Positions 334 to 59,495 of a stretch of DNA of 64,000 bases are shown piece after piece; within the stretch, counting starts at the first letter, position 1, and every line of letters begins with the position of its first letter. The notes under the pieces are model-generated. The model made no database searches. It was given only the letters and a program-made list of their open reading frames with translations, and had not been told where the DNA came from. The stretch comes from Gracilibacillus caseinilyticus. GTDB taxonomy: Bacteria > Bacillota > Bacilli > Bacillales > Amphibacillaceae. Position numbers and translations under genes: made by a program. The stretch spans positions 3,472,001 to 3,536,000 of the forward strand of contig NZ_CP095072.1 of assembly GCF_022919115.1 (NCBI RefSeq), written 5' to 3'.

Positions 334-530
334 TATAATACGGATTATGTAAAGTGGAATTGTTAAACGATTTGGTTATTTTGAAATGTTTTATGTGCTT
401 AGCAAAGCTCCGGAAATAAGCTCCTCGTCCTGTGGGGCACGAAGTGGTTGGCGGGAGCGGTATCCCTGCACATGTATCATTTCAAAATGATCACTAAGCA
501 GTTAGTTGACATAATCCGTATTATGAGAAC
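334..530 (+). repeat. Palindromic intergenic repeat, copy A (short form)
   Basis: About 197 bp with the left end TATAATACGGATTATGT (334-350) and the right end ACATAATCCGTATTATG (509-525), an inverted pair. Inside, ATTTTGAAATG on the left faces CATTTCAAAAT on the right, and GCTTAGCAAAGCTCCGG faces GGGAGCGG..TGCAC, so the whole unit can fold into one long hairpin. No ORF of note. It lacks the 0.25-0.4 kb apical segment of copies B, C, E and F. Confidence 0.85.
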
Positions 531-533
531 ACA

Positions 534-566
534 AAAAAGCACCCCATAACCACTGGAGTGCTTTTA
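534..566 (-). terminator. Rho-independent terminator of the sigma-factor operon
   Basis: The hairpin AAAAGCACCCC..GGAGTGCTTTT ends in a T run on the minus strand, 12 bases past the stop codon of the membrane-protein gene. Confidence 0.75.
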
Positions 567-577
567 CTGGAGACTGT

Positions 578-1639
578 TTATGATTTCTTTTTCCGGTTCA
601 TTAGTGCGAGCTTCATGCCGCCTCCAATCAGCAATAAACAGACGATGCTAACTTGGAAATAGGAGTTATAGTAATGCCAGAAATTATTGCCTAGCAGATT
701 ACCCAGTACTGGAAGAAGCACATGATCAAATAAATAAAATAATCCAAGTACGACTAATCCAATACCGAGCCACTTTTGGTTGTTCTTAATATTCTTAAAG
801 ATCGGCACGTCTTCCACGTTTTCATATTCCATTCGATTTGCCGCTTGCATCGTATCAAAGAAACTGTAAAACCAGACGATCGGAATCAGGAATAAGAAGA
901 GTGATAAGTGTAATACGTCTAAAATATAAATAGCAGACAAGAATACAGCCATCAACTGAAGCCCACGCTTCTGCAAGCCAAGGTACAAGTGGCCAGCACC
1001 TGGGAAGATAGATAAAATAACGGCTAAAACACGGCTTTTGTTTTCACTATTTCGCGCACGTTCAAAATCATCTAATATCGTTTTATCTTCTAATACTTCG
1101 CCAGCTTGTTTGCGATTTAGAAGTTGAATCACATCAAATAAACTATAGACCCAAATAATTGGCAGGATTAATAAAAAGATTAAAAATACACCACTGGTTA
1201 AGATGCTGATAAAGAATACAATGGTGATGATTCCGATAAAAGCTGATAATAGCGTAAGACCGCGGTATGTTAATCCTATGTAAAAATGGCCAACACCAGG
1301 AATAACGGAAAAAATAATGGTCTTCACTCTTTCATTATTGAGATTTGTCTCGTGATCATCAACTTGTGCATTCCCAACTCCAGTTGGTTTTGCATGTAAA
1401 ATCGTGACGATCATATCGAGGAAATTGATGAACCAAATGATAGCTAGTAAAAGAAACATTAATATATAAAATTCACTATAACCAACAACCCCCGTAAATG
1501 CTGAGAATAACGAAACAAACACCCCACCGAAAAAGGCTAACATATATATAATTCCTCGGAATATACGGCCCCAATAAATATGACCAAACCCTGGGAAAAA
1601 GCTTAAGAAAAATGCTAATACTGCAGATTTGTTATTCAT
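578..1639 (-). CDS. Triplicated 'PGxGHxYxG' integral membrane protein of an ECF sigma operon
   Basis: A 353-residue polytopic membrane protein. Three internal repeats each begin FFPGFGHIYWG (near residue 15), VIPGVGHFYIG (near 113) and IFPGAGHLYLG (near 209). Each is followed by RG and two or three hydrophobic segments, resembling tandem TM2-like units. A fourth, unrelated hydrophobic region fills the C-terminus (about 290-350), ending in a basic tail RKKKS. Its ATG overlaps the anti-sigma stop codon, so it is translationally coupled as third gene of the sigma/anti-sigma operon. It may help signal envelope stress to the anti-sigma factor, but no function is established from sequence. Confidence 0.85.
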   Translation of the reverse strand: MNNKSAVLAFFLSFFPGFGHIYWGRIFRGIIYMLAFFGGVFVSLFSAFTGVVGYSEFYILMFLLLAIIWFINFLDMIVTILHAKPTGVGNAQVDDHETNLNNERVKTIIFSVIPGVGHFYIGLTYRGLTLLSAFIGIITIVFFISILTSGVFLIFLLILPIIWVYSLFDVIQLLNRKQAGEVLEDKTILDDFERARNSENKSRVLAVILSIFPGAGHLYLGLQKRGLQLMAVFLSAIYILDVLHLSLFLFLIPIVWFYSFFDTMQAANRMEYENVEDVPIFKNIKNNQKWLGIGLVVLGLFYLFDHVLLPVLGNLLGNNFWHYYNSYFQVSIVCLLLIGGGMKLALMNRKKKS

Positions 1640-2046
1640 TCCTTACCCTCCCCTTTTAATTTTTCGATCCATTGATCTGTTTTTAACATTAGATGCTCTG
1701 AAATAGATGGCTTTTGTTCCATTTGTTGATCGTTTGTTGCTTGCATCACACCTTGGAAAACCCCAGATACTGTTAGAAGCACTGTGAATCCAGCGGCTAT
1801 CGCATAATGAATGAGTGCACGATTTGTTCGATCCTTCGAAGGTGTTACGACAGTTTTGTTCATGTGTTGCATGAATGTATCGGTAAAATCAGAAGATGGT
1901 GCGGCTTCATATGTTTGTTCGTCTATAACAATAAGATATAATTCCATACAGCTGTCACACGTTAATAAATGATCTTCCATTTCCTTTCTATTATCGATAG
2001 TTTGTTCTACATACGCGATAACTTTTTCTTTCGAAAGATGGCTCAT
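1636..2046 (-). CDS. Anti-sigma factor with zinc-finger and one membrane segment
   Basis: A 136-residue protein. The N-terminal part carries a zinc-binding anti-sigma motif, H-x3-C-x2-C (HLLTCDSC, residues 26-33), as in the ZAS family. One membrane span (about 82-104, YAIAAGFTVLLTVSGVFQGVM) follows, with a short extracytoplasmic tail. The start overlaps the sigma-factor stop by 4 bases and its own stop overlaps the next gene, a classic sigma/anti-sigma arrangement. It probably holds the adjacent ECF sigma factor at the membrane until a signal releases it. Confidence 0.85.
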   Translation of the reverse strand: MSHLSKEKVIAYVEQTIDNRKEMEDHLLTCDSCMELYLIVIDEQTYEAAPSSDFTDTFMQHMNKTVVTPSKDRTNRALIHYAIAAGFTVLLTVSGVFQGVMQATNDQQMEQKPSISEHLMLKTDQWIEKLKGEGKE

Positions 2047-2588
2047 CTAAAATCTTCCTCCTTCCAATTTTCCTTCATCCATTTTCTGGCTCTGTACAGC
2101 CTGGTCTTCACCGTCGTTCCTTCCAGACCATAACGATCCGCTATTTGTTTATAGCTCAATTCCTCGAAGTAATACGCATGGACCACTAATTGAAATTTAG
2201 CAGGCATCTGCTTGATCCGCTGTTGGATAATAGTGAATTGATCTTTAGCCATCACCTCTTCTTCCACATTCAACTTCTTGTCTACAGGGTGAAAAGCTTC
2301 AAACGTATGTAATTCTTCCCGCTTTCGTTTCCTCTGGCGCTGATGATCAATTGCTTTATGCAAAGCGATTCTTGATAACCATGTTTTAAACCCTTGATTC
2401 TGATAAGTTGGAAGGGCATCGAGCATTTTGATAAATGTTTCCTGTGCAAGATCCTCTGCAATTTCTTGGTCACGAACGACACTATATGTTACTTTAAAAA
2501 CATGGTGCTGATAACGTTCTACGATCATCCGAATTGCATGTTGATTACCAGCTTTCATTTTATCGATCAGTTTCGTCTCATCAATCAT
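2043..2588 (-). CDS. ECF-type RNA polymerase sigma factor
   Basis: A 181-residue sigma-70 family protein of the extracytoplasmic-function type. Region 2 is seen at about 20-90 (VTYSVVRDQEIAEDLAQETFIKM) and region 4 at about 125-175 (YYFEELSYKQIADRYGLEGTTVKTRLYRARKWM). It should direct polymerase to its own regulon and be held by the downstream anti-sigma factor. The start ATG has a GGGGGGAG-type site. I could not place it in a named B. subtilis class such as SigW, SigX or SigY from sequence alone. Confidence 0.9.
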   Translation of the reverse strand: MIDETKLIDKMKAGNQHAIRMIVERYQHHVFKVTYSVVRDQEIAEDLAQETFIKMLDALPTYQNQGFKTWLSRIALHKAIDHQRQRKRKREELHTFEAFHPVDKKLNVEEEVMAKDQFTIIQQRIKQMPAKFQLVVHAYYFEELSYKQIADRYGLEGTTVKTRLYRARKWMKENWKEEDFR

Positions 2589-2736
2589 GCTCTCCCCCCT
2601 TCTATACGACTACACCATAATGGACGACACCAAGGAATAAAAAGTATACAAAATTATTCAAGTTTTTAATGCTTAAATTTTTCCAGATCGTGCTATAATG
2701 GTTACTATTAGATAACAAGCAGTCAGGAGTGAAAAA

Positions 2737-3861
2737 TTGAGGAAGTTAAGAGCACTTATATCCTTGCTACTTATTGCTGGTATAGTAGGCTTTATATATA
2801 GTGATGACTATCAGGAAAATGGCATAAACGGTGTCTGGCAGCAATTAACCACCGATGTAGATAACATTAAAAATAATCCGCAGCTGTTAAGTACGATTGA
2901 AACGATGAAGTACAAGCTTGAGGATGTCTTCGAACGATTGACTGAATCGAATACAGAACCACCTGTACCATCTGATGCGGAAAAACCCGAACTCACAGCG
3001 CCAAGCGAACAATCGTTCTCGATCCATAATATCGAATTGTCCCAGTCAAAAGCAAGCGTAACGGAGCAATTAGGAGAAGCGAAACGACAAAGTCTGAATG
3101 AATATGGCGTTGATTGGTACAGCTATCATGACAATTTTCAAAATTTCCTTATGGTAGCCTACAATGAGCAAGACCAGGTAGCTGCTCTGTATACCAATCA
3201 GGATTTAATCTCATCCACAAAGAATATTACACTTTCAAGCAACAAAACAGACGTTCGCGATGCGTTTGGAGAACCATTAGATTCGATTCGAAAAGGTTTT
3301 ACCCGGTATAAAATAAATGATAGTGAGGAGCAAGATACGTTCCTTATTGATGAAAGTTATGTTACTTTCTTCTATGATGTCCACCAGGGTAACCAATTAG
3401 CAGCGATTCAGATTGTTGCGAAGTCATTAGAGAATCAAAAGCAGGATTTCTTCGGTGGAACGGGTGACTCCTTAAAAGAAGGATTCGAATACCAATTATT
3501 TGATCTGACAAATGCATCCAGAGTCAAGTTCGGTCTACCTGTTCTGCAGTGGTATGAAGAAGCACGAACAACCGCTCAAAACCACAGTACCGATATGGCC
3601 GAAAATAATTACTTTGGTCATAACAATCTCGACGGTCAATCTCCATTTGATCGCTTAAAAGAGGACGGTATTTCCTTCCAATTAGCTGGTGAAAATCTGG
3701 CAGCTGGTCAAGCGAGCAGTATCTTTGCACATCAAGGTTTAATGAATTCGGAAGGTCATCGAAAGAATATATTACATGCTGATTTTCGTCTTATGTCGGT
3801 AGGTGTTGCCATGAAAGAGGATGGTCAGCCTTTCTATACAGAGAGTTTTATCACGAAATAA
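2737..3861 (+). CDS. Secreted or membrane-anchored CAP-domain protein (YlbC-like)
   Basis: 374 residues from a TTG start with CAGGAGTG six bases upstream. Residues 6-22 form a signal or anchor helix. The middle (about 100-240) looks like the CAP-associated N domain, with two half-repeats around 'IELSQSKASVTEQLGEAKR' and 'ITLSSNKTDVRDAFGEP'. The C-terminal CAP/SCP domain (about 255-370) has the typical HSTDMAENNYFGHNN, GENLAAG and HRKNILHADF motifs. B. subtilis YlbC has the same architecture. The gene is monocistronic, divergent from the sigma operon, and ends in a strong terminator. Molecular function is unknown; CAP proteins are linked to the cell surface. Confidence 0.85.
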   Translation: MRKLRALISLLLIAGIVGFIYSDDYQENGINGVWQQLTTDVDNIKNNPQLLSTIETMKYKLEDVFERLTESNTEPPVPSDAEKPELTAPSEQSFSIHNIELSQSKASVTEQLGEAKRQSLNEYGVDWYSYHDNFQNFLMVAYNEQDQVAALYTNQDLISSTKNITLSSNKTDVRDAFGEPLDSIRKGFTRYKINDSEEQDTFLIDESYVTFFYDVHQGNQLAAIQIVAKSLENQKQDFFGGTGDSLKEGFEYQLFDLTNASRVKFGLPVLQWYEEARTTAQNHSTDMAENNYFGHNNLDGQSPFDRLKEDGISFQLAGENLAAGQASSIFAHQGLMNSEGHRKNILHADFRLMSVGVAMKEDGQPFYTESFITK

Positions 3862-3892
3862 AGCTTACCCGCGGGTAAGCTTTATTTTTTAC
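3860..3892 (+). terminator. Terminator of the CAP-domain gene
   Basis: A perfect 24-base palindrome, AAAGCTTACCCG and its complement (3860-3883), overlaps the stop codon and is followed by TATTTTTT. Confidence 0.9.
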
Positions 3893-4209
3893 TCTTTATC
3901 TTTTTTGTGATGATGTTTGTGATCCCACTTCGGAACAAATTGATTCTCTTCGAGCATTTTGTATTTCCTATCAAGATGCTCGAGAATATTCTTCCCTTTT
4001 TCCTCCGTCAGCACGCCATATTCCACATACTTATTAATAATTGTTTTTTCTTTTTCTACCAATTCCTGCTGTAAGGTCTTCATTTCAGCGATTTGTTTAT
4101 CTGTTAACGTTACATCGTTCGTTTCTGCTTGTACAGGTGAAATTGTGATACCTGCCAGCAGCGACATCATAAACCCAGCGATTAGCCATTTCTTCCATAA
4201 TCTAATCAT
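3889..4209 (-). CDS. DUF2680 (YckD-like) secreted protein
   Basis: 106 residues with a Sec signal peptide (WLIAGFMMSLLAGITISPVQA) followed by a short helical DUF2680-type region: LTDKQIAEMKTLQQELVEKEKTIINKYVEYGVLTEEKG. The tail is rich in His and Lys (KWDHKHHHKKDKE), which could bind metal. YckD of B. subtilis belongs to the same family; no function is known. The start has an AAGGAGTGA site. It converges on the CAP-domain gene. Confidence 0.8.
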   Translation of the reverse strand: MIRLWKKWLIAGFMMSLLAGITISPVQAETNDVTLTDKQIAEMKTLQQELVEKEKTIINKYVEYGVLTEEKGKNILEHLDRKYKMLEENQFVPKWDHKHHHKKDKE

Positions 4210-4278
4210 GCAATCACTCCTTTTACTCTTAGTGTGACGTAAAGCCCATCATTTATACGAAAAAAAGGAGTGGAAAAA

Positions 4279-5005
4279 CTAGACGGTTGTCATCCAATTA
4301 ATTAATAAATCTTCCTGATACAAATCATCAGGATACTGTACCATCGCAGTGTCTTCCTCAGCATATAAATACTGTAATAATTCATTAAATGCACCCATGT
4401 ACTCCTGGTATAGAAATTCATAGCTGATCGTTTCTTTCGGCATTTCATTGTTCTTACATACAGCAGGATCCGTATAATTCACATAGGTTCTGCATGGCAA
4501 TGGCCTGATTTCGTATGCAAGACATTGATTGGATTCTGTATCGAGCATTACACAAGGAAGCCCTGCTTTTTTTATAATTGTATTTAGCATCAGCGTCAGA
4601 TACTACGTCCAGTTTGCCTAATTTCTCTACCTTCTGTCCATAAGTCTCATAGTATTGTTTGATATGATCGTTAATCTTGTTTTTACGGGATGCAGGCAAC
4701 TGATCAAACGAATTCCGAATTATTTTCGCCTCCATTTTATTAATAACAATCGGGAAATAGCAGCAGAACGCACAGCCCATTTGACAAGTCGGTTGCAATG
4801 AAACGGCTGCTTCCATCTGTTCCATCTCCATCGATACAGCTTTCATCAATTGCTGGTATCCCTCGATTATTTTCTGCTTAGTGGGCAAATCACTATCTAT
4901 CAATTGATCAACTACCTGGTAAAACGTTTCTTCATCTATACTATATTTTTCATTTAACGCCGCACATTTCGTTAAAATTTCATCATATGTTACATAACTC
5001 TCCAT
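4279..5005 (-). pseudogene. YkgJ-type cysteine-cluster protein, frameshifted in a 7-A run
   Basis: The N-terminal frame (5005 to about 4585) carries CQMGCAFCCYFPIVI, the typical Cx3CxxCC metal-cluster motif of the YkgJ/UPF0153 zinc- or iron-chelating family. The C-terminal frame (about 4590-4279) carries AGLPCVMLDTESNQCLAYEIRPLPCR, the second half of the same family. The frames switch at a run of seven As on the minus strand (4567-4573). Reading six As gives ..YNYKKAGLPC.. and restores one protein of about 242 residues. This is a real one-base insertion, a slippage-variable site, or a sequencing error. Confidence 0.8.
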
Positions 5006-5052
5006 TAAGATAAACTCCTACTAGTTTTGATATCTTCAACTAGTATAACAGA

Positions 5053-5847
5053 TCACCGCACATTTTCTACTGGAAATAGTGAAAATTCCATACTGATATA
5101 CAAAGTCGCAAGCATCCACATGATTAGCAGACAGACAAATAGAAGATCGTGCAGAGAAATCGACATTTTGTAATAAAAAGTTCTAGCCGTTTGTTTGGTA
5201 AATTGTTTGGCTTCCATTGCGACAGCGATTCGGTGTGCTCTTCGAATACTTTGTGCCAGTAATGGAATACTGTATTGTTTCACTTTCTGATACATGCCTT
5301 TAACGCCTCGTGGAAATACGACTCCTCTTACTCTCATGGCTTGTCGTAATGTTTGGAATTCTTCGAGCATAATCGGCAGCATACGAATGCCGGCCATGAA
5401 ACTATATGCATATGCTGGCTTTACTTTCATTTGCTGCATCACAGAATAGAACAGATAGACCGGTCTGGTTGTTAAAGCAAAAATCAGACTTAAAATCCCA
5501 AACACCGTACTTCTTAATCCTAAGTGGAGTCCACGATAGAAGCTTTCTTCTGTAATATGAATCAGACCAAACTGATACCATGTCGTCTCCCCTTCGCCAA
5601 AAAAGATCATGGCAGTAGCTGAGGACACGAATATTATCACTAATGGCAACGCCAGCAATCCGATCACTTTCCCCGTATGCCCAGTAGCAAATAAATAAAT
5701 CAGGGTGGCGCCGATTATAAAATAAAGAAGAAAATTGGGATTATGAATAAATAATAAGCCAATAAATAATGATAGAAAAGCGATTAATTTCATACTAGGA
5801 TTTAATCGATGCAGCCATGTTGCCTGATACGTTATCTCTCCGATCAT
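5053..5847 (-). CDS. ykoC: ECF transporter transmembrane subunit EcfT (YkoC-like)
   Basis: CbiQ/EcfT family membrane protein with about five or six hydrophobic segments and the family's coupling helices (GIRMLPIMLEEFQTLRQAMRVRG near residue 158 and the later SIPLLAQSIRRAHRIAVAMEAKQF). These touch the two ATPase domains. I chose the ATG at 5847 (MIGEITYQ) over a GTG nine bases upstream because AAGGGTGA is correctly spaced for it. It is the last gene of the TPP-riboswitch operon, after the duplicated ATPase. It should form the energising module for uptake of a thiamine precursor, probably hydroxymethylpyrimidine. Confidence 0.88.
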   Translation of the reverse strand: MIGEITYQATWLHRLNPSMKLIAFLSLFIGLLFIHNPNFLLYFIIGATLIYLFATGHTGKVIGLLALPLVIIFVSSATAMIFFGEGETTWYQFGLIHITEESFYRGLHLGLRSTVFGILSLIFALTTRPVYLFYSVMQQMKVKPAYAYSFMAGIRMLPIMLEEFQTLRQAMRVRGVVFPRGVKGMYQKVKQYSIPLLAQSIRRAHRIAVAMEAKQFTKQTARTFYYKMSISLHDLLFVCLLIMWMLATLYISMEFSLFPVENVR

Positions 5848-5852
5848 TTGTC

Positions 5853-7283: not shown

Positions 7284-7284
7284 A

Positions 7285-7878
7285 CTAAGACCCCGTTTCT
7301 TCATCGGAAAAGTGATAATCTTTTTCTGATAATGGCCGGATCATCTTGGTTACTCCTGTTTTATCCAATGCTAAAACTAAATAATAAGCAAAAACGCCAG
7401 TAATCACGATAGCACCGATCGTTCGATTGACGATTAACAACGTAACATTCCACCATGCTAACGTATCGATATAGCCATAAAACACATCCAGTATTAACGA
7501 ACCTATTGTAGCGCCGACAGCCGCCAGACAGGTGACGAACAATCGATAGCTTTTGTAACGAACCATCGCAAACACAAGTTCACAGCCTAGTCCTTGCAAA
7601 ATGCCATAAAGTAATAATGAAATCCCCCAGGAGCCCCCGAATAGAAATTCCCCCTGAGCTGCCGCCACTTCTGCTAATAAGGCAACACCCGGCTTTCGAA
7701 TAATGAGGAAAGCAACCGTAGCCGCCATAAACCACATACCATATACAAGTTGATCGACATGCAAGCCGACCACAGATATCACGCTGTACACTGGTCCCCA
7801 TACTCGGTAAATCACACTAAAAATAAAAGCAATGACAATCGTAATTAAAATGTCCACCAATGTTAACTTTTTCTTCAT
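7285..7878 (-). CDS. ykoE: ECF transporter substrate-binding subunit YkoE (thiamine-related)
   Basis: 197 residues with about five or six membrane spans, of the YkoE S-component family. Known family members take up the hydroxymethylpyrimidine moiety of thiamine. Its placement directly behind a TPP riboswitch and ahead of the ATPase and EcfT genes supports that role. The start has a GGAGTGGGAG site. The fourth B. subtilis gene, ykoF (a soluble thiamine-binding protein), is absent here. Confidence 0.9.
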   Translation of the reverse strand: MKKKLTLVDILITIVIAFIFSVIYRVWGPVYSVISVVGLHVDQLVYGMWFMAATVAFLIIRKPGVALLAEVAAAQGEFLFGGSWGISLLLYGILQGLGCELVFAMVRYKSYRLFVTCLAAVGATIGSLILDVFYGYIDTLAWWNVTLLIVNRTIGAIVITGVFAYYLVLALDKTGVTKMIRPLSEKDYHFSDEETGS

Positions 7879-7917
7879 GTACTCCCACTCCTTCTACATA
7901 TTTGTTATCCAAAGCAC

Positions 7918-7952
7918 AAAAAAGCCACCTTCTCGCACGCAAGAAAGTGGCT
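7918..7952 (-). terminator. Riboswitch-controlled terminator of ykoEDC
   Basis: The minus-strand hairpin AGCCAC..GTGGCT (with CTT/AAG extension) runs directly into TTTTTT, between the TPP aptamer and the ykoE ribosome binding site. It is the expected expression platform. Confidence 0.85.
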
Positions 7953-7990
7953 ATACTTATACTTATTCAAATCATATGTATAGGAATAGT

Positions 7991-8085
7991 TGCCACTTCC
8001 CTACGCTGGTATAAACCAGATCAGGTTCTAAGGGTCTTAAAGTATCACTTTAATCTCAGTCTTGTTAAGACACCCCTAGTGGATG
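7991..8085 (-). ncRNA. TPP riboswitch (THI element)
   Basis: The minus strand shows the conserved TPP aptamer core: GGGGTGTC, then CTGAGAT, then ACCCTTAGAACCTGATCTGG and TACCAGCGTAGGGAAG. The last two blocks are the hallmark thi box. The aptamer is followed by a terminator hairpin and the ykoEDC genes, so high thiamine pyrophosphate should stop their transcription. Confidence 0.95.
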
Positions 8086-8284
8086 TGTTTCGTATATTAA
8101 TTTCGACTTTATCATATCAGATTTTTCCAGATTGTCAAGAGCATACCCATATTTATTGAAATAATAATCGTACGACGTTTCAATCTTTCTCAAAATATTG
8201 ATCAGTATAATTTGTCACTAATGAGAAAAAATAAGCTAACATTGCAGGCAGTCTTAATGGAGAAAATATTGGGAGGGATTATAG

Positions 8285-8530: not shown

Positions 8531-8548
8531 TGAAGGAGGATAACTATA

Positions 8549-8701: not shown

Positions 8702-8722
8702 TTTAGTAAAAATTAATAAAGT

Positions 8723-8761
8723 GGTTAGTGTAACAAACTCGCGAATTATGTTACACTAACC
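8723..8761. terminator. Bidirectional terminator between sspP and the DUF4256 gene
   Basis: A 13-bp perfect stem GGTTAGTGTAACA / TGTTACACTAACC, with A/T-rich flanks on both sides, separates two convergent genes. Confidence 0.8.
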
Positions 8762-8773
8762 CCCTCTTTATAT

Positions 8774-9792: not shown

Positions 9793-9850
9793 GGGAAACA
9801 ACATAAAACAATTTAATATTTTACTTCAATTTTTTTATTGAAGTGAGAAT

Positions 9851-10025
9851 AGAGGAGCAAAGACCAATAGTACATAATCGGAGGAAGATGTTACCTGTGA
9901 TGATTATGGAAAGGGGAATTTGCCGAAGTAATGAAAGCAGACATCAGCTGTTATTACTGGTCCATCATTAAATAAATGCTGGGCTGTCATATAGTGAATA
10001 ACTATATGGAGGGCTATCTCACGCA
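9851..10025 (+). ncRNA. Lysine riboswitch (L box) aptamer
   Basis: The characteristic L-box blocks appear in order: AGAGGAGCAAAG, AGTA, GGAAAGGGGAATTTGCCGAAG, GCTGGGCTGTCATATAG and TATGGAGGGCTATCTC. A terminator follows and then dapA. Lysine binding should favour the terminator. In Bacillus the L box usually precedes lysC; here it controls a stand-alone dapA. Confidence 0.92.
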
Positions 10026-10042
10026 TCGAATCCAATCATTCA

Positions 10043-11045: not shown

Positions 11046-11098
11046 AGAAACGGGAAAGTCCTCCCGGTCCTAACTAACATAAATAATAAACAACTACC

Positions 11099-11528
11099 TA
11101 TAATATGGATTATGTAAAGTAAAACTGACTGACATTGTGGTGATTTTAAAAGGCTTCATCTGCTTTGCAAAGCTCCGAAAATATGCTCCACGGACGCGGC
11201 TTCAGCTAGGCTACTACTTGAACTACTTCTAAAAGCAGTGATTCTTGGCATTATACGTCATCAGAGTAAGGCATAAAGCTGCAGTTAATGCTCTCTATCC
11301 TACCTGTCGCATTAACTGTGGAGTTAAACTTGAGCGTAAGCCAACCACGTAGATTCCTGCGGGACGTGTAGGTGCTGAAGCTAACTTTGTGAAGCGTTCT
11401 TCTTCACAAAGTTAGCTTCAGCCGTGCCCCGCAGGACGCGAAGTGGTTGGTTGGAGCGGTATCCCAGCACACTAAACATTTCAAAATTATTTCAACGATA
11501 GTTGACATAATCCATATTATAAGAACCC
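11099..11528 (+). repeat. Palindromic intergenic repeat, copy B (long form)
   Basis: About 430 bp. Left end TATAATATGGATTATGT (11099-11115), right end ACATAATCCATATTAT (11505-11520) followed by AAGAACCC. It holds the apical hairpin GCCAACCACGTAG..CTTTGTGAAG / CTTCACAAAG..AAGTGGTTGG. The outer left flank (about 11066-11098, CCGGTCCTAACTAACATAAA) and the outer right tail (to about 11604) also match copy C. It lies between convergent dapA and the epimerase gene. Confidence 0.85.
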
Positions 11529-17410: not shown

Positions 17411-17452
17411 AAAAAAATCTCGCCCCAAGACTGTGTCTTAGGGACGAGATTT
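17411..17452 (-). terminator. T-box-controlled terminator before the MFS gene
   Basis: On the minus strand AATCTCGTCCCTAAGAC / GTCTTGGGGCGAGATT runs into TTTTT, 37 bases upstream of the MFS start. Confidence 0.85.
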
Positions 17453-17690
17453 ATTCACCGTGGTACCACCCATATTCGTTAATATATCACTATATTAACC
17501 TCTTCAAGTACAACAACTCTCTGCATATACTCTAGCTCTGTAACAGGAGCTCCTGTCACGCCATCATCTTTAAAGAAATCCAACGCGATACTCTGAGGCT
17601 TGTTTCAATAAAGTCATACATACCCCTTTTCAGCAGCTGGGGCTCTCTAATATGAATGGTTCTTTATTTACTCTTCTCTTCTATGTATGT
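17411..17690 (-). ncRNA. T-box leader, predicted threonine specifier (ACA)
   Basis: The T-box sequence GGTGGTACCACGG lies at 17458-17470 (minus). Stem I shows the loop-E pair AGTA (17669-17672) and GAA, with AATAAAG / CTTTATT directly distal to it and AGAGAG plus GCTG in the upper stem. The bases after GAA read ACA then A, so the specifier is ACA (17601-17603, Thr). The same rule gives CCT (Pro) for the proB leader in this window, which supports the reading. Confidence 0.85.
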
Positions 17691-17748
17691 AAGTATTAAT
17701 TTTGTATATATTACCATTTAACAAGGTCCGATGCAAGACAATTAGATG

Positions 17749-18586: not shown

Positions 18587-18667
18587 TTGTCATCCTCCTT
18601 TTTCATTATAAGAAAAAAGGGGAAAGCCCCAGCCGGTTCTAACTAACATAAATAATATACAACTACC

Positions 18668-19259
18668 TATAATATGGATTATGTAAAGTGGAACTGTCTG
18701 ACGTTATGGTAATTTTGATATATTTCATCTGTTTAGTAAAGCTACTAAAAATTGCTTCACGTCCTTTAGGGCGAGGTTTTAACTAGCCTAATACTCGCAC
18801 TACTTCTTTACTGCCTTGTGCCAAGGAAGGTTACTTCGAAGTGATTCCTGCAGACACAGGCACAGACAAAGTGGATCTTCAGCTCGTACTGACGCATGCG
18901 GAGCGGAGTCTCCACACATATTTCTTCCGTGAAGTGCTACAACGTATGGAACAGCTAAAAGCAGTCGTGTTGGGCATTGTATGTCATCAAATTAAGGTAT
19001 AAATCTTGCAGATAGTGCTCCATATCCTACCTGTTGCATTATTTGTGGAGCTATACATGAGCGTAGGCCAACCACGTAGACTCCCGCGGGACGTGCAGGT
19101 GCTGAAGATCCACTTTGTGAAGTGCTTTTCTTCACAAAGTTAGCTTCAGCCGTGCCCCGCAGGACGCGAAGTGGTTGGCCGGAGCGGCATTCCAGCACAT
19201 TAACAATTTCAAAATTACCATTAATCAGCTAGTTAACATAATCCATATTATAAGAACCC
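18668..19259 (+). repeat. Palindromic intergenic repeat, copy C (longest class)
   Basis: About 592 bp with the left end TATAATATGGATTATGT and the right end ACATAATCCATATTAT plus AAGAACCC. The apical hairpin GGCCAACCACGTAGAC..CTTTGTGAAG / CTTCACAAAG..GAAGTGGTTGGCC (about 19067-19180) is very well kept. The outer left flank GGTTCTAACTAACATAAATA and the outer right tail (to about 19322) match copy B. The ORF-like stretch inside is an artefact of the palindrome. The remaining intergenic bases hold only this copy. Confidence 0.85.
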
Positions 19260-19323
19260 ATCTTCATGTTCAGTATGATTACTTCTATGACTGTACTTAT
19301 ATGCTTTCTTAACGTATAAGAAA

Positions 19324-23278: not shown

Positions 23279-23325
23279 TTTACTTCCTCCCCTTCCTAAC
23301 TAGCATCATTATAAATAAGGCTTCC

Positions 23326-23529
23326 AATAATACGGATTATGTAAAGTAGAACTGTTTGTAATGTGGTAATTTTGAAATGGTATATATGCGTAGCAAAGCT
23401 CCGGAAATTTACTCCGCGTCTTGTGGGGCACGAAGTGGTTGGCCGGAGCGATCTCCTTGCACATAAAACATTTTCAAAATGGTCTTATCGATAAAATTTC
23501 TAGTTGACATAATCCGTATTAAAAGAACC
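23326..23529 (+). repeat. Palindromic intergenic repeat, copy D (short form)
   Basis: About 204 bp. Ends ATAATACGGATTATGT and ACATAATCCGTATTAA plus AAGAACC. It has the same minimal core as copy A, with GCAAAGCTCCGG and GTGGTTGGCCGGAGCG joined by a short loop. The tail after the right end (to about 23601) matches the tails of B and C, with CTTTCTTTACATACAAGAAAA at its end. Confidence 0.85.
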
Positions 23530-38701: not shown

Positions 38702-38918
38702 TTGATTCAGCTCCATCTCCAAATTCTAATTAACATTGAAGGCAATACAATTCACTATTTATCCATAAAGATTTTAAAATAGCTTTTCAGTTAAAAGGCT
38801 GGTGATATTTCTCTCGCATTTTTGAATAAAAAAGGCACCCTCCCATGTTCCACACCCCATCCTGAGAAGTACGCGACTTATCAAGAAAAAACGACTTTTA
38901 CTTAATATTTTAACTAGC
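38702..38918. other. Intergenic stretch without recognisable feature
   Basis: About 217 bases of AT-rich sequence between the methyltransferase pseudogene and repeat copy E. It holds no convincing ORF, terminator or RNA motif that I can see. Confidence 0.4.
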
Positions 38919-39431
38919 TATAATATAGATTATGTAAAGTGGAACTGTAATACAAGGGGGTTATTTTGATAGGTTTTATCTGCTTAGCAAAGCTCCGGAA
39001 ATATGTTCCGCGTCCTGTGAGGGCGGCCTCAACTAGAAGCCCACTTTCCTGCGGGATTTTCGGACACGACTGATCTGACGGGAGTCTCCGCATATTTCCT
39101 ATGCTTAAATAAAGAGCCACAACGATTGGAACAGATAAAAGCGGTGGTGCTAGGCATTATACATCTCTAGAATGATATGTAAATAGCGTTCCATATACTA
39201 ACTGTCACACTAGTTGTAGAGCAAACACAATAGCGCAGGCCAACCACATAGACTCCCGTGGGATCAGCACGAGCTGAAGATCCACTTTGGAAAGAAAAGA
39301 ATTTTCTTTCCAAAGTTAGCTGAAGCCGTGCCCCACAGGACGCGAAGTGGTTGGCCGGAGCGGTTTCCTAGCATTTGAACCATTTCAAAATGAATACTAA
39401 GCTAGTTTACATAATCTATATTATAAGAATC
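38919..39431 (+). repeat. Palindromic intergenic repeat, copy E (long form)
   Basis: About 513 bp. Left end TATAATATAGATTATGT, right end ACATAATCTATATTAT plus AAGAATC. The apical hairpin arms differ slightly from B and C (CTTTGGAAAGAAAAG / CTTTCCAAAG), with matching changes on both sides of the stem. It lies 22 bases from the AraC gene end. With copy F it brackets the AraC gene in opposite orientation. Confidence 0.85.
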
Positions 39432-40437: not shown

Positions 40438-40513
40438 CGCTCCTGTTCAGAAGTATTAAAAACTAGGCTAGGAAGCCGCCTGGTCGTAATGAACTAAAAT
40501 ATCCACAGCTTCC

Positions 40514-41102
40514 TATAATACGGATTATATCAACTAGCTAGACCATTTATCGATACGACCATTTTGAAATGGAGTATGTGCTAGTATACCGCTTCGCCCA
40601 ACCACTCCGCGTCCTGCGGGGCACGGCTGAAGCTAACTTTGTGAAGAAGGGCACTTCACAAAGTGGATTTTCAGCACCTGCACAATCCCGCGGGAGTCTA
40701 CGTGGTTGGCCTACGCTAGGGTTGGTACTCTACAACTTTTGAAAGAGGTAGGATTTTGAGCGCATCCATAATTGTATAATAATAGCGTTCGATAGAATAA
40801 CATATGCTAGCACCACTGCTTTTAGCTGTTGTGGTACTTCCCTTAAGCGTAGGAAATATGCGGAGACTCCTCATGCGTCAGCGCGAGCTGAAGATCCTCT
40901 GTGCCTGTGTCTACTAGTATTGCTTCAAAGCAAGCTTCCTCGGCACAAGGCAGCAAAGAAGTTGTTCAAGTAGTAGCCCTAGCTGAGGCTGTGCCCACAA
41001 AACGCGGAGCATATTTCCGGAGCTTTGCAAAGCAGATGAAGTCTATCCAAATTACCACAATGTCAGACAGTTCTACTTTACATAATCCGTATTATAAGAA
41101 CT
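40514..41102 (-). repeat. Palindromic intergenic repeat, copy F (long form, core inverted)
   Basis: About 589 bp. Left end TATAATACGGATTATAT (40514), right end ACATAATCCGTATTAT (41080-41095) plus AAGAACTC. The core runs the other way round from A-E: right-hand material (CTAGCTAGACCATTTATCGA, CCATTTTGAAATGG) comes first, and left-hand material (GGAGCTTTGCAAAGCAGATG, CAGTTCTACTTTACATAATC) comes last. The outer left flank and the outer tail keep the normal order (TGAACTAAAAT..CTTCC; CATGATTACTTCT..CTTTCTTAAGGTGTAAGAAAA). Confidence 0.85.
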
Positions 41103-49464: not shown

Positions 49465-49690
49465 AAACAAAAAACTCCCCCATCCCTTATCAAAAAGGAC
49501 GAAAGAGCTTTCCCGCGGTACCACCTTTATTTGATCATACATTTGGTATGATCCTCTCAACTCTTTAACGCAGAGTAACGTTTAAGTTTATCCTTAACAG
49601 TTCCTAGAGTAGGTTCATCAGGATAGTGGATGATGGAATCTCTCAGCCAATGAATTCCATTCTCTTCTCATCATATCACTCACTACTGGC
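49465..49690 (-). ncRNA. Proline T-box leader of proBA
   Basis: GGTGGTACCGCGGG at 49512-49525 is the T-box sequence. Stem I has AGTA near its base and GAA then CCT then A; the specifier is CCT (49611-49613, Pro). A terminator with wobble pairs, CTCTTTCGTCC / GGGATGGGGGAG plus TTTTTT (about 49465-49510), follows. Uncharged tRNA-Pro should allow read-through into proBA. Confidence 0.92.
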
Positions 49691-49761
49691 TCTAGTCATA
49701 ACTTTTTATTTATTCTAATGTTATTATAGTGAATAGCTTTGTAAATCTCAAGTGTTATTGC

Positions 49762-51711: not shown

Positions 51712-51730
51712 TGTACTAACTTCCAATTCC

Positions 51731-51875
51731 TTTGTAGAGTCCAAACATTAGCGTAGGCCAACCACGTAGACTCCCGCAGGACGCGAAGTGGTTGGCCGGA
51801 GCGGTATCCTAGCACATTAAATATTTCAAAATAAGCACAAAGCTAGTTAACATAATCTGTATTATGTCGACTAGC
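51731..51875 (+). repeat. Palindromic intergenic repeat, copy G (left-truncated)
   Basis: About 145 bp, matching only the right third of the long form: GCGTAGGCCAACCACGTAG, GACGCGAAGTGGTTGGCC and GGAGCGGTATCCTAGCAC. The left end is missing. The right end ACATAATCTGTATTATG is fused to its own mirror image, so 51842-51875 is a palindrome (GCTAGTTAACATAAT / ATTATGTCGACTAGC). Between convergent CBS-protein and gltD genes. Confidence 0.8.
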
Positions 51876-51941
51876 TATTTACTTCAGTCACTAGCTACGT
51901 TTATTTATTAGTTTTCTTCATTCCTCTTTCTTATAATAGGA

Positions 51942-51968
51942 AAAGTCCCGACTTTACCGGGACTTTTC
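51942..51968 (-). terminator. Terminator of gltBD
   Basis: AAAAGTCCCG / CGGGACTTTT perfect stem, 5 bases past the gltD stop; T tract on the minus strand. Confidence 0.88.
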
Positions 51969-51972
51969 TTCG

Positions 51973-53469: not shown

Positions 53470-53485
53470 ATCATCTGTCTCCTTT

Positions 53486-56400
53486 CTATTTGGTCAGAAC
53501 TTCTTCCTGATTTAGTGTAACTGTCATTTTGTCATCTTTCTTAGCCATAAACGCTTCGTAACGAGCATCGTCATCTGATAATCCTTGAGATGCGAACCAA
53601 TCAATCTGACGTAACATTAACTTGTAATCAGTTGGAATTACTTTAACAATTTTGCTTAGCTCTGCATCCCAATTCTGTAATGTTACAGCAGCTTTATCAC
53701 TGTTCGTATACTCATAATGGTTAGTAATCATTTCTTTTAATTCTGCTATTTCTAGTTCATCTGAAACCTCTTCAAATTGGACCAATTCATCGTTACACAG
53801 GTGTTTAAACTGATCCATATTGTCAGGTTTCACATAAGCTACTCCGCCTGACATACCTGCTGCAAAGTTTTTGCCGACATTACCTAGTATAACAACACGG
53901 CCACCAGTCATATATTCACATCCGTGATCCCCTACGCCTTCTACAACGATTTTTGCTCCACTATTTCGGACAGCAAAACGTTCGCCAGCATATCCTTGGA
54001 TATAAGCTTCACCACTTGTAGCGCCGTAGAATGATACGTTACCAGCAATAACATTATTACCTGGATCAATGGTTGTTTTATCAGAAACACGAACAATTAC
54101 TTTACCACCAGATAAACCTTTACCTACATAATCATTCGCGTCGCCTGTTACCGTCATCGTCATTCCGGATGGCGTAAATGCACCGAAACTTTGACCTGCT
54201 GATCCTGTAAAGTGAAGGTTGATCGTGTCAGCTGGTAAACCTTGTTCACCATATTTTTTAGAAATTTCACTACCGACAATCGTACCTACAACTCGATCAG
54301 TATTTTTGATCGGATAGGATGCTTCAACCTTTTCACCTGTCTCGATGGCATCTTTAACAGCCGGCAAAATATATTTTAAATCAAGTGATTCATCTAGTTT
54401 GTGATCTTGTTTGGTTGTATTAATACGAGTTCCTTCAGGCTGATACAACAATGTTGATAAATCCAGATGCTGAGCCTTCCAGTGTGACTTCGCACGTTCT
54501 GATACTTCTAATACATCCGTTCTGCCAACCATTTCGTCAATAGTGCGGAATCCTAATTCTGCCATAATTTCTCGTACTTCATTGGCGATAAACGTCATAT
54601 AATTAACTACATGATCCGGATCACCTGTGAACTTCTTACGTAATTCAGGGTTCTGTGTCGCTACCCCTACCGGACATGTATCTTTTTGACATACACGCAT
54701 CATGACACAACCAACTGCAACTAATGGCGCTGTTGCAAAGCCATATTCTTCTGCACCTAATAATGCTGCCATTACGACATCTCTACCTGTTAATAGCTTA
54801 CCGTCTGTTTCTAATATGACACGGTCACGCAAATTGTTAAGCATCAAGGTTTGATGTGCTTCTGCTAGGCCTAATTCCCATGGTAGACCCGCATGTTTGA
54901 TACTAGTTTTAGGAGATGCACCTGTACCACCATCATAACCGACAACTGAAATAACATCTGCATTTCCTTTTGCAACACCTGCAGCAATGGTACCAACACC
55001 TGATTTCGCAACAAGTTTCACACTAATTCTTGCATCACGATTAGCATTTTTTAAGTCGTGGATTAATTGTGATAAATCCTCAATTGAATAAATATCATGG
55101 TGTGGCGGCGGTGAAATCAAGTCAACACCTGGAGTGGAACCACGCACGTCTGCTACCCATGGGTATACTTTCATACCTGGTAATTGACCACCTTCACCTG
55201 GCTTCGCACCTTGGGCCATCTTAATCTGCAATTCTTTCGCATTTACAAGGTAATGACTCTTCGCACCAAAACGCCCAGATGCAACCTGTTTGATCGCACT
55301 GGAGCGTAAGTCACCATTTTCATCTCTAGTAAATCGGTCAGGGTCTTCGCCACCTTCACCACTATTACTTTTACCGCCAATGCGGTTCATGGCTATTGCT
55401 AATGCTTCGTGTGCTTCTTTACTAATGGAACCGAATGACATGGCTCCTGTTTTGAATCGTTTGAAGATCGATTCTATTGATTCTACTTCTTCAATCGGAA
55501 TCGCATTTGATTGCTTAAAGCTGAATAAATGTCGTAGTGAGCCTATATTCCCATCATTTGCTGCTTTGGAGAATTTCTTAAATAAGCTGTAATCACCGCG
55601 TCGACAAGCCCATTGCAAGGTATAAATGGTCGTAGGGTTAAATGCATGATGTTCCCCTACTTTACGCCATTGGAAATCACTTCCTGGTTCTAATGATTCC
55701 TCGATCGCTTCTTTATATCCTTCCTTGTGGCGTTTCTCCGTTTCTTCTTGAATAACTGATAAACCGATACCGTCAATTTGTGAAGCAGTTCCAGTAAAAT
55801 GATCCGCAATTACTTGCTTACTGATACCGACTGCTTCAAAAATTTGCGCACCTCTATAACTTTGTACCGTTGAGATACCGATTTTTGACATAACCTTGAT
55901 AATACCTTCTGTAGCAACACTAATATACTTGACTTGTACGTCTGCAAGCGTCAGGTTCATACGGTTATTTAAAATCGATTCATAATACGTTTGATACACA
56001 AGGTATGGATGAATTGCATCAACCCCATATCCTAGCATTGTAGCAAAATGATGCACTTCTCGTGCTTCACCGGATTGTGCGATAATGCTTGCTCGTGTAC
56101 GGATACCCTCACGTACTAAATATTGGTGTAAACCACTTACCGCTAACAAGACTGGAATGGCTTTCTTGTTTGCATCCATGTTTTTGTCACTAAGAATAAG
56201 GATATTGCTTCCAGATTCAATCGCAGTTTTTGCTTGTGCAAACACATCTTCTAAAGCTTCTTCCATATTATTTGTAAATAATGTTTCAATAACCGTTGAT
56301 TTAAAATAATCAATTTGATTATTTTCTAATTTATCAAGCTGTGTGTTCGATAAAATCGGAGAATCCAAACGAATTCTGCTATTTTTCGTTTTTGCAGGGT

Positions 56401-58039
56401 GCAGGATATCTCCTTCGCCACCGATCCAGGTCAGCATGGAGGTAACCAATTGCTCACGATATGCATCTATCGGTGGATTCGTAACCTGTGCAAATAATTG
56501 TTTGAAATAATTAAACAAGCTTTGCGGACGTTGTGATAAAACCGCTAACGGCATATCATTACCCATTGCTCCGATCGGGTCTTTTCCTTCTTCTACAAGC
56601 GGAATCAGATATTTTTCTACATCTTCCGTTGTGTAACCAAATGCCTTTTGTTTCTGAATAAGTTGCGGGTCAATATAGTCGTCATTTTCAGCATCTACTT
56701 CTAACCTTACAATTTGTTCATCCAGCCATTCACCGTATGGTTGAGTACTCGCGATCTCTTCTTTAATTTCTTTGTCGGAAATAATGCGTCCTTCTTCTAT
56801 ATCTACCAGAAGCATTTTCCCTGGACTTAAACGCTCTTTTAACAGTACATTTTCCTCTTCATAGTCGATAACACCAACCTCTGAAGAATAAATGATATAG
56901 TCATCTTTTGTTACATAGTAACGAGCTGGACGTAAACCATTACGGTCTAGAATCGCACCGATTTGTTTTCCATTTGTAAACGTAATGGAAGTAGGCCCAT
57001 CCCATGGCTCCATCATCATACTGTGATACTGATAGAAGGCACGTTTTTTCTCCTCCATGTTTGCATTCTTATCCCACGGTTCCGGAATAAGCATCATCGC
57101 TGCATGTGCAGGCTTACGTCCTGCAAGTGTGAAGAATTCCAATGCGTTATCTAATGTAGCAGAGTCACTTCCGCCACCATTGATAATTGGCAGAATTTTG
57201 TCTAAATCATCGCCAAATGCTTCAGAAACAAACTGTTGTTCACGAGCACGCATCCAGTTCACGTTTCCACGCATTGTATTAATTTCCCCGTTATGAATTA
57301 AATAACGGTTCGGGTGTGCTCTTTCCCATGATGGGAATGTATTCGTACTGAAACGAGAGTGTACGAGAGAAAAAGCAGACACAAACGCTTCATCTTGTAA
57401 ATCAAGATAAAATTTATCTACCTGGTCAGGTGTTAATAATCCTTTGTATACAATTGTGCGGTTCGATAAACTTGGGAAATAGAAGCGAATTCCTTGTTCA
57501 TTTGCCCAGTTTTCCGCTTGTTTTCTAATAATATATAATTTCCGTTCGAACGCTAAATCATCATCTAATTGGTCATTCGCTTCAATAAATACCTGAAGAA
57601 CGTTCGGTAATGTTTCAATTGCTCCTTTACCAATATGTGTCGGATCGACAGGTACATCACGCCAACCAATTAATTTCTGACCTTCTTGTTCGATCAATCC
57701 ATTAATTTTGTTTATTGCATCTTTGTTTTCATTCTCATCTTGAGATAAGAACAACATTCCAACTCCATAGCGTCCAACAGCTGGCAGTTGAAAGTCTTTG
57801 CATTCTCTTCTAAAATAACTATCAGGGATCTGTACCATTAGTCCAGAACCATCACCTGTCAGTGGGTCTGCTCCCTGTCCACCACGGTGTTCTAGTTTAC
57901 ATAACATGTCAAGACCTTTTTTTACAATTTCGTGTGTTTGCTTCCCTTTTATATGTGCATATAAGCCAATACCACAAGCGTCGTGTTCATAATCGGGATG
58001 ATACAACCCTTGAGCTTCAGGCAAGTCACGATATGTCAT
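53486..58039 (-). CDS. gltB: Glutamate synthase large subunit
   Basis: About 1517 residues from the ATG 58039 ([20 protein letters not shown]), with GGGGGCG upstream. A short propeptide precedes the glutaminase Cys at about residue 22 ([10 protein letters not shown]), followed by the Ntn amidotransferase domain, a central domain and the FMN synthase domain ([28 protein letters not shown]). The 3Fe-4S cluster is [18 protein letters not shown], and the C-terminal GxG repeat beta-helix follows. B. subtilis calls this gene gltA. Controlled by divergent gltC. Confidence 0.95.
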
Positions 58040-58082
58040 ATGTGTCGCCCCCATTCAATATACTTTTAAGGTGTCTATTTAT

Positions 58083-58111
58083 ATTGTAAGTTTTCTTATC
58101 AATCTAAACAA
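58083..58111 (-). promoter_or_regulatory. gltB promoter
   Basis: On the minus strand TTGTTT (-35, 58106-58111) and TACAAT (-10, 58083-58088) are 17 bases apart, 44 bases upstream of the gltB start. Confidence 0.55.
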
Positions 58112-58128
58112 TATATAATATATATATG

Positions 58129-58145
58129 ATCGTTCTAATATTGAT
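58129..58145 (+). promoter_or_regulatory. Candidate GltC operator (LysR-type dyad)
   Basis: ATCGTTCTAATATTGAT is an ATC-N11-GAT inverted repeat between gltB and gltC, placed just upstream of the gltB -35 element. The position suits a LysR-type activator of gltBD. Confidence 0.45.
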
Positions 58146-58166
58146 ATATATCACGAGGTGAAAAAT

Positions 58167-59069
58167 GTGGAATTAAGACAATTACGTTATTTTGTGGAAG
58201 TTGCAGAAAGAGAACATGTGTCAGAAGCGGCAGCTGTTCTGCATGTGGCACAATCAGCCATCAGCAGACAGATCTCCAATCTTGAAGCAGAGCTTGGTGT
58301 CGAGTTATTTGAACGCGATGGCCGCAATGTACGATTAACCCATATCGGGAGAATATTTCTCACACATACCAAATCAGCTTTAAAAGCGATTGATCATGCC
58401 AAAAAACAAATCGATGAATTTATTGACCCTGAAAGAGGCTCGATTAAGATCGGATTTCCAACGAGTCTTGCCGGAAATATGCTGCCAACAGTTATTTCTG
58501 AATTCAAAAAGAAACACCCAAAAATAGATTTTCAATTAAGACAAGGCTCTTACAATTTCTTAATTGACGCTGTCAAAAACAGAGAAATAGATGTTGCGTT
58601 TATCGGTCCCGTCCCAGACGATCTTCCAGACATCAAAGGTGAAGTATTGTTCAATGAGAATTTTTATGCATTGGTGCCGATATCGCATCCTGCTGCGACG
58701 AAAGGTGTAATTGATTTACCGACACTTAAAGACGAGTCTTTCGTATTATTCCCAAAAGGGTATGTTTTACACCAGCTTGTTATTGATGGCTGTATAAGAG
58801 CAGGGTTTAATCCGATCGCTACGTCACAGGGAGAGGATTTGGATGCAATTAAAGGACTGGTCGCTGCCGGTATCGGAATTACATTATTACCAGAAAGTGC
58901 ATTTAACGATTTGAATCCATTTTACAGTGCTAAAGTAGCAATCAAAAATCCAGAATTAACCCGAACAGTCGGTGTTATTATTCCGAAAAAAAGAAAACTG
59001 GCCCCATCTGAACAAGTCTTTTACGAATTTATTATCGAATTTTTCTCGCTTATGCAAAAGATGCAATAG
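58167..59069 (+). CDS. gltC: LysR-type activator of glutamate synthase
   Basis: 300 residues from the GTG at 58167, the same length as B. subtilis GltC, beginning MELRQLRYFVEVAEREHVSE. GAGGTGA is five bases upstream; the GTG at 58158 overlaps that site. Winged HTH at 1-65 and ligand domain after it. In B. subtilis it activates gltAB when ammonium, not glutamate, is the nitrogen source. Its placement divergent from gltBD fits. Confidence 0.93.
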   Translation: MELRQLRYFVEVAEREHVSEAAAVLHVAQSAISRQISNLEAELGVELFERDGRNVRLTHIGRIFLTHTKSALKAIDHAKKQIDEFIDPERGSIKIGFPTSLAGNMLPTVISEFKKKHPKIDFQLRQGSYNFLIDAVKNREIDVAFIGPVPDDLPDIKGEVLFNENFYALVPISHPAATKGVIDLPTLKDESFVLFPKGYVLHQLVIDGCIRAGFNPIATSQGEDLDAIKGLVAAGIGITLLPESAFNDLNPFYSAKVAIKNPELTRTVGVIIPKKRKLAPSEQVFYEFIIEFFSLMQKMQ

Positions 59070-59155
59070 GAGTTTTGGGAAAATACATGTGAATAAGTTA
59101 AGATTCAGCTGACGTGACCATAAACCTTTGACAAAAGAATTTTAATCAAAAAAAA

Positions 59156-59204
59156 CCGAATATAACAAGCAATCCCATCAAAAAAGGATTCATGTTATAT
59201 CCGG
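59156..59204 (+). terminator. Terminator of gltC
   Basis: CCGAATATAACA.. AATCC / GGATT..TGTTATATCCGG long stem followed by CTTTATT. Confidence 0.75.
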
Positions 59205-59280
59205 CTTTATTCTAGTGCTGCAAAGTAACTTCTCAAGAAAATACTTTTTAATCAATTGATGTGAAATAAAGATGTACATC

Positions 59281-59495
59281 AAATTGGCTATTTTGAAATG
59301 TTTTAATTGCTTAGCAAGGCCGATATGCTTCGCGTCCTGTAGGGTGGGGTTCAGCTTCCTCGGAAAGAAATACACTTTCATGCGAGATCTTCAGCCGTGC
59401 CCCGTAGGACGCGAAGTGGTTGACCGGAGCGGTATCCCAGCACATTATCTATTTCAAGATGGCATCAACGCTTGTTAGCACAAGAAGTCTCAACA
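59281..59495 (+). repeat. Palindromic intergenic repeat, copy H (decayed, ends lost)
   Basis: About 215 bp. Core blocks remain (CTATTTTGAAATGTTTTAAT, GCTTAGCAAGGCCGATATGC, GACGCGAAGTGGTTGACCGG, GAGCGGTATCCCAGCACATT) but both terminal repeats are unrecognisable and internal bases have drifted. It appears to be an old copy between convergent gltC and ypcP. The rest of 59070-59630 holds only the gltC terminator. Confidence 0.7.

Follow-up and report, generated by a model that had tools for sequence, protein, structure and literature searches.

What are the palindromic elements that recur between genes in the 64,000-nucleotide stretch of the Gracilibacillus caseinilyticus chromosome analysed here (the window; C1:3472001-3536000 of a genome consisting of a single contig of 4,509,959 bases)? 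An earlier note had recognised eight copies, A to H, as an intergenic family with shared terminal inverted repeats (TIRs), resembling miniature inverted-repeat transposable elements (MITEs). Sequence comparison pointed to a different kind of element. The copies are probably noncoding relatives of the D-type dif modules of Acinetobacter, with a two-layered structure, whose interior would be flipped and exchanged by the host recombinases XerC and XerD.

Family size and coding content

The family extends well beyond the window. In the whole genome, the end motif TATAATAYGGATTATGT had 292+309 matches with at most three mismatches, versus 27+29 for a reversed-pattern control, confirming a family larger than eight copies and beyond chance. 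Paired elements were counted in a 41% sample of the genome, and genome-wide counts refer to motif matches. We found 79 two-ended elements in the 1.863 Mb sampled, window included (~42 per Mb), and 40 in 0.798 Mb of a sister species, G015 (~50 per Mb). Both genomes have around two hundred short noncoding elements each, mostly just behind genes. The interiors were about 130-770 bp long and partly palindromic.

A first set comprised 72 of 82 pairs, after overlaps and pairs with >5 mismatches were dropped. None of these 72 lay inside an open reading frame (ORF) of at least 80 aa, in agreement with the initial view that the elements encode no protein. Their share of the window, first given as about 4-5%, was also reproduced: elements from elsewhere in the genome covered 2929 bases (4.6%) by blast, including one doubtful 80-bp match at 61164-61243. 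The sharing of ends by all eight copies held for six of them (A to F), which had both ends where they had been placed; copy G had the right end only and copy H had none.

Ends resembling dif sites

The shared end corresponded to the inner portion of a dif-like Xer site of 28 bp. Each site had an 11-bp XerC-type arm on the outside, a 6-bp spacer (mostly TACGGA or TATGGA) and an 11-bp XerD-type arm on the inside. The XerC-type arm was RCTWCCTATAA on one side of the element (e1) and GGTTCTTATAA on the other (e2), and the XerD-type arms were TTATGTAAAGT or TTATGTCAACT. The two unlike interior ends had A, A and T in common within the outer XerD arm, including its last base, and then largely diverged.

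A dif site is normally single per chromosome and serves in dimer resolution. The putative dif of this organism, ACTTCCCATAATATATATTATGTAAACT at C1:3452225-3452252, was a near-perfect match to a query modelled on Bacillus dif. We took it as the organism's dif because it lies at the GC-skew switch, the sign changing between about 3.42 and 3.47 Mb. The sister species had an identical site. The Bacillus-type query gave six matches, the own dif and five element ends at three mismatches, versus none for the control.

When the 22 arm positions of this dif were scanned against 1.664 Mb with the spacer ignored, 79 sites matched at 18 or more positions: 59 paired element ends, the dif itself and 19 others. 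Of these 19, 14 had GG at spacer positions 4-5, as the elements do, and four came from two palindromic sites scored once per strand. Four patterns with shuffled arms gave 0 or 1 site and the reversed pattern 0. The scan is partly circular, with 11 of the 22 positions falling in the motif that had found the ends, and for this reason a phase test was limited to the 11 positions outside the motif. In phase, the ends matched dif at 3.53 of 6 and 3.60 of 5 positions. All 12 shifted registers were below these values, with 0.53-2.40 (of 6) and 0.75-2.13 (of 5).

The genome encodes both XerD (TIGR02225, 395.9 bits) and XerC (TIGR02224, 359.2 bits). The spacer of the own dif, TATATA, is unlike those of the elements. 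By the known Xer rules, unlike spacers would prevent recombination between sites, and the elements are therefore likely kept from recombining with dif.

The same architecture could also be flipped by a dedicated tyrosine recombinase instead of XerC/XerD, which we consider improbable. The genome had 12 PF00589 matches, and the arm sequences of the ends differ in other species, both as such an enzyme would allow. Against it, the arms match the organism's own dif, and the single extra Xer-like candidate tested (303 aa, 3602263) found no counterpart at E 1e-30 in the sister species, itself a carrier of the family. The other PF00589 recombinases were viewed by length and end sequence only, and two were scored against NCBIfam.

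Two further observations concern Xer genes and arms. The xerD gene is itself followed directly by an element (C1:3342755-3343270 and 3343481-3344225), and the orthologous place in the sister species has no end motif. Pairs of XerD-type arms also occur as perfect palindromes (AGTTTACATAAT...ATTATGTAAACT) at places not called as elements, G000:C1:3540027 in this genome and G015:C1:434037 and 449689 in the sister; these may be another recombination site or the operator of a regulator.

Fixed exterior and two-way interior

Conserved sequence continued beyond the dif-like sites in many copies. To describe both layers, interiors were oriented by homology to copy C, and exteriors were typed as 60-bp stretches by consensus strings; 15 of the 79 elements here and 7 of the 40 in the sister were unclassified for orientation, and in the window the interior of copy D and the exterior of copy E were untyped. 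The exterior was asymmetric, with one e1 and one e2 side in 44 of the 49 elements typed on both sides (23 of the 72 were not typable on both sides). It was also fixed with respect to the neighbouring gene. For 63 of 68 elements (p 8e-14), and for 32 of 37 in the sister, the gene on the e2 side pointed inward, often ending 70-140 bp ahead of the element. On this side, 33/59 elements were preceded within 140 nt by a terminator-like hairpin with a T-tract, the controls being 16/59 for the opposite strand and 6/300 for random 140-mers. On the e1 side, outward terminators were found in 14/62 cases, 12 of them at 48-52 nt, and inward ones in 6/62.

The interior followed no such rule. Its sense was the same as that of the exterior in 31 elements and opposite in 33 (p 0.9), which, next to the gene-directed exterior, indicates a fixed exterior around an interior of variable orientation. 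Sister interiors had the same sense in 11 elements and the opposite sense in 22 (p 0.08). Within the window, the interior of copy F had the opposite sense to those of A, B and C relative to the exterior.

The spacers at the two ends of an element tended to agree. The same spacer was found at both ends in 51/79 elements, whereas 2000 shuffles gave a mean of 21.3 and a maximum of 35. One spacer dominates in the sister, and there the two ends agreed in 25/40 elements (shuffle mean 19.3, maximum 26). All six two-ended copies in the window had identical spacer pairs, including the rare TATAGA of copy E.

One exterior was empty. At C1:857463-857490, an e1 exterior is joined to an e2 exterior as ACTTCCTTTAA-TACGGA-TTATAAGAACC, without interior, and exterior-like sequence flanks both sides of the joint. 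Synteny with the sister breaks near this place. In a search of three genomes with up to three mismatches, this joint was the only exact match; 11 others had 2-3 mismatches and, by their letters, looked like ordinary element ends, as confirmed on reading for one of them (L310).

Comparison with the sister species

Collinear flanks were present in the sampled sister sequence for 24 of the 79 elements; 54 others had no sampled ortholog and one fell at an edge. The sister had a paired element at 12 of the 24 loci, at least one end motif without an accepted pair at seven, and no end motif at five. At these five, which include copies B, C and E, the aligned flanks were just 30-89 bp apart (30 bp for copy C). 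Intergenic divergence between the two species was too high to fix the insertion edges or to tell whether a target site had been duplicated.

We compared 11 of the 12 shared loci, setting aside 3277830, where the exteriors were opposed. Interior length differed between the species at all 11. The best interior match was inverted at four loci (3512514, 3047975, 3948010 and 4492286) and direct at seven. Two of the inverted loci, 3512514 and 3047975, and only these, look like clean cases of inversion by sequence. The first, which is copy F, had orthologous exteriors on both sides; the sister interior was inverted and shorter, and both spacers had changed together. At the second, the right XerC arm had an unusual TTTAA in both species, and the interiors matched in inverted sense over 204 bp at 85%.

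Copy E has no typical e2 exterior, and its homology to the sister flank starts exactly at the XerC-type arm of its right end, as if part of this arm had already been in the target. This is one of the features that an ordinary MITE family would also explain. The ends would then be the TIRs of a transposase, and the interior would have been inserted either way into a fixed kind of target. MITE-like remains apt as a description, the elements being short, noncoding, numerous and bounded by inverted ends, with insertions absent from the sister. As an origin it is unlikely. The inverted repeats are probably not the ends of the mobile unit, since conserved sequence runs on outside them in many copies, and this exterior is asymmetric and fixed relative to the gene; they are better described as inverted dif-like Xer sites, whose likeness to dif reaches beyond the inverted repeat and stays in phase. 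The transposase gene with matching ends that the earlier note had suggested looking for was not found in the sampled sequence. An autonomous element was sought among six far-spaced facing end pairs (1.863 + 0.798 Mb, among the matches listed), of which four enclosed ordinary-looking genes, one had no ORF of 120 aa and one contained an IS3-family insertion in the sister; no transposase fitted the ends.

The IS3-family transposase gene lies inside one sister element (L295 12960-15680, G015).

Proposed mechanism

From these features we propose that host XerC and XerD act on a two-layered element. The outer layer (e2 ... e1) sits behind a gene in fixed orientation, after a recognisable terminator in just over half of the cases, and some copies carry their own terminator at the end. 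The inner layer lies between two inverted 28-bp dif-like sites with the XerD-type arms inside, which is the architecture of a D module. Recombination of the two sites by XerC and XerD, where their 6-bp spacers match, would invert the inner layer. Rarer recombination would remove it, leaving an empty exterior as in the one found, or replace it by that of another copy. The role of XerC/XerD as agents, the ongoing inversion and the exchange of interiors are what we infer from the architecture. A wider and more tentative possibility is that XerC/XerD run ~200 noncoding cassettes throughout the genome, flipping, removing and swapping them at matching spacers, and that their orientation may alter the 3' context of genes.

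Several observations weigh against host Xer recombination. The e2 XerC-type arm is the weakest of the arms, GGTTCTTATAA agreeing with dif at only 3/6 outer bases. Five of the 49 elements typed on both sides had exteriors of the same type on both sides. Orientation in the sister tended to one side, and its spacer agreement was weak. At several shared loci each species had exteriors of its own, and the copies there may stem from separate insertions or from conversion. The three genomes searched yielded a single empty exterior. A chromosome with hundreds of dif-like sites might be expected to have trouble resolving dimers. Finally, inverted repeats that are perfect over 17 bp can occasionally invert with no involvement of Xer.

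This last point leads to passive inversion, by which rare recombination or template switching would act at 17-bp inverted repeats kept for a DNA or RNA hairpin. In its favour, each end is an inverted copy of the other and parts of the interior are palindromic. A hairpin shared by 27 long copies was also predicted, with an alifold value of -36.2 versus 0 to -0.3 for 10 column shuffles. Two-sided changes were seen in only 3/65 of its pairs (2/45 for the other strand), which is little covariation for an RNA; the elements may or may not form the structured RNA that the earlier note also considered. Passive inversion also leaves unexplained the dif-matching bases outside the inverted repeat and the empty exterior joined at one spacer. 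We regard it as very improbable. The only Rfam match on the elements had 17.7 bits, compared with a cut-off of 290, and nothing came near a cut-off.

Distribution in relatives

An exact pattern, ATAANNNGGATTATGT, was searched in 61 genomes. It had 277 matches here (control 1) and 369 in G015 (control 0). Elsewhere it had 48 matches in G007 (control 1), 7 in G013 (control 1) and 0-5 in the others. The strict end pattern had no match in named genomes, a set that may leave out near relatives. Copy C had no match in 72,556 plasmid records and none in phage records.

The interior hairpin was wider in distribution than the end pattern among the matches listed. An exact interior-hairpin pattern, represented by 80 of 120 loci, was found in Gracilibacillus, Sediminibacillus, Paraliobacillus, Aquibacillus, Halobacillus, Thalassobacillus, Virgibacillus, Natronobacillus and Alkalibacillus. 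Good inverted dif-like ends accompanied 8 of the 82 hairpin matches listed (7/80 loci), and the listed loci with such ends were in G. ureilyticus, G. timonensis, G. oryzae and Aquibacillus sediminis. In four of six G002 stretches (L137, L138, L139, L142) and one of three G009 stretches (L143), the hairpin was enclosed by another kind of exterior, terminator-like, in which it is flanked by GGGACATAACTAAATAGG and, on the opposite side, by TGTCCCAACCTC or TGTCCCAGCCTC. None of three G016 stretches had the GGGACATAACTAAATAGG-type exterior around the hairpin. Among the matches listed, the hairpin was also on several contigs (L159, L177, L187, L191, L227) of a record named Paenibacillus bovis DE0126, unlike the other genera; this record is possibly mislabelled.

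Relation to known systems

MITEs and repetitive extragenic palindromic (REP)-type repeats are short, noncoding and dispersed, with inverted ends. The elements differ from them in their dif-like ends and two-way interior in a fixed exterior, and in the lack of a Y1 transposase gene in the genome. An origin as REP elements mobilised by REP-associated tyrosine transposases (RAYTs) was rejected, PF01797 having 0 matches in the genome (1 in the sister, 10 in G007). An origin from a group II intron was rejected as well, with 0 PF00078 matches in the genome and no group II family among the four Rfam matches in the window. The sister had seven PF00078 reverse-transcriptase matches and G007 five.

The closest likeness was to the dif modules of Acinetobacter. 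In the passages concerned, these are segments between inversely oriented 28-bp sites, each with an 11-bp XerC arm, a 6-bp spacer and an 11-bp XerD arm (PMC13141974, PMC12907356), and the D type has the XerD arms inside (PMC13141974). Module replacement and one D module without an ORF are described (PMC13141974, PMC12907356), as are 22 dif sites in one Acinetobacter chromosome (PMC12907356). Like these D modules, the elements have inverted 28-bp sites with XerD inside, both orientations and, within most copies, identical spacers. Unlike the modules as portrayed there, they lie in a Gracilibacillus chromosome, mostly singly and not in arrays, with hundreds of sites and a nearly uniform spacer. 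No gene was found inside them, except for one inserted insertion sequence (IS) in the sister, and they have a repeated exterior in fixed orientation behind genes. The gene-bearing, alternating C and D modules on Rep_3 plasmids described for Acinetobacter had no counterpart here. By analogy, architecture and orientation suggest that the elements may work like noncoding D modules.

Other systems share single features. Integrative mobile elements exploiting Xer (IMEX), such as the phages CTXphi, VGJphi and TLCphi and the gonococcal genomic island (GGI), are described as gene-bearing, targeting dif and integrating through host Xer, the central region of the VGJphi site differing from dif (PMC5357621). 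The elements resemble them in a dif-like site suited to host XerC/XerD and, for VGJphi, also in a non-dif central region, and differ in being 0.13-0.77 kb long, noncoding and spread over some two hundred places. Insertion sequences of the IS1202 family target pdif and dif sites and have a 441-457 aa transposase and their own TIRs (PMC10132070); no such transposase gene came up here, where no genome search was aimed at one. At the RecV loci of C. difficile, a regulatory region between inverted sites is described as inverted by a known recombinase and found in both orientations (PMC7446863). The elements likewise have a segment between inverted sites found both ways, and unlike those loci form a repeated element behind genes. 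In the titles, abstracts and some passages of the open-licence literature, we found no comparable family outside Acinetobacter.

If the proposed mechanism is correct, Xer recombination can sustain a chromosome-wide family of tiny noncoding cassettes behind genes, an integron-like set without integrase or genes. Such a family would offer a natural test of how spacer identity protects the real dif, of Xer action away from the terminus, and of the effect of 3'-region flipping on expression.

Copies in the window

Table 1 Positions of the element copies in the window, with their dif-like sites (arm matches to the own dif out of 22) and spacers.
Feature	Position	Strand	Description
Copy A interior, 192 bp	334..525		dif-like sites 328-355 (18/22) and 504-531 (18/22); spacers TACGGA/TACGGA
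Copy B interior, 423 bp	11099..11521		dif-like sites 11093-11120 (19/22) and 11500-11527 (17/22); spacers TATGGA/TATGGA
Copy C interior, 585 bp, reference long copy	18668..19252		dif-like sites 18662-18689 (19/22) and 19231-19258 (17/22); spacers TATGGA/TATGGA
Copy C e1 exterior	18610..18661 (approximate)	-	outward-pointing terminator-like sequence, then CTAACTAACATAAATAATATACAACTACC as far as the XerC-type arm
Copy C e2 exterior	19259..19322 (approximate)	-	reverse strand AAGAAAGCATATAAGTACAGTCATAGAAGTAATC...; comes after the terminator-like sequence of the right-hand gene
Copy D interior, 198 bp	23326..23523		dif-like sites 23320-23347 (19/22) and 23502-23529 (16/22); spacers TACGGA/TACGGA
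Copy E interior, 507 bp	38919..39425		dif-like sites 38913-38940 (18/22) and 39404-39431 (18/22); spacers TATAGA/TATAGA, a rare type; atypical exterior
Copy F interior, 583 bp	40514..41096		dif-like sites 40508-40535 (18/22) and 41075-41102 (18/22); spacers TACGGA/TACGGA
Copy G, truncated	51731..51866		single dif-like end (right), motif 51850-51866 with 2 mismatches
Copy H, interior remnant	about 59259..59483		neither side has an end at up to 4 mismatches

The four Rfam matches above cut-off in the window were a lysine riboswitch (9842-10024, +), two T-box leaders (17437-17692, -; 49492-49708, -) and a thiamine pyrophosphate (TPP) riboswitch (7981-8087, -).

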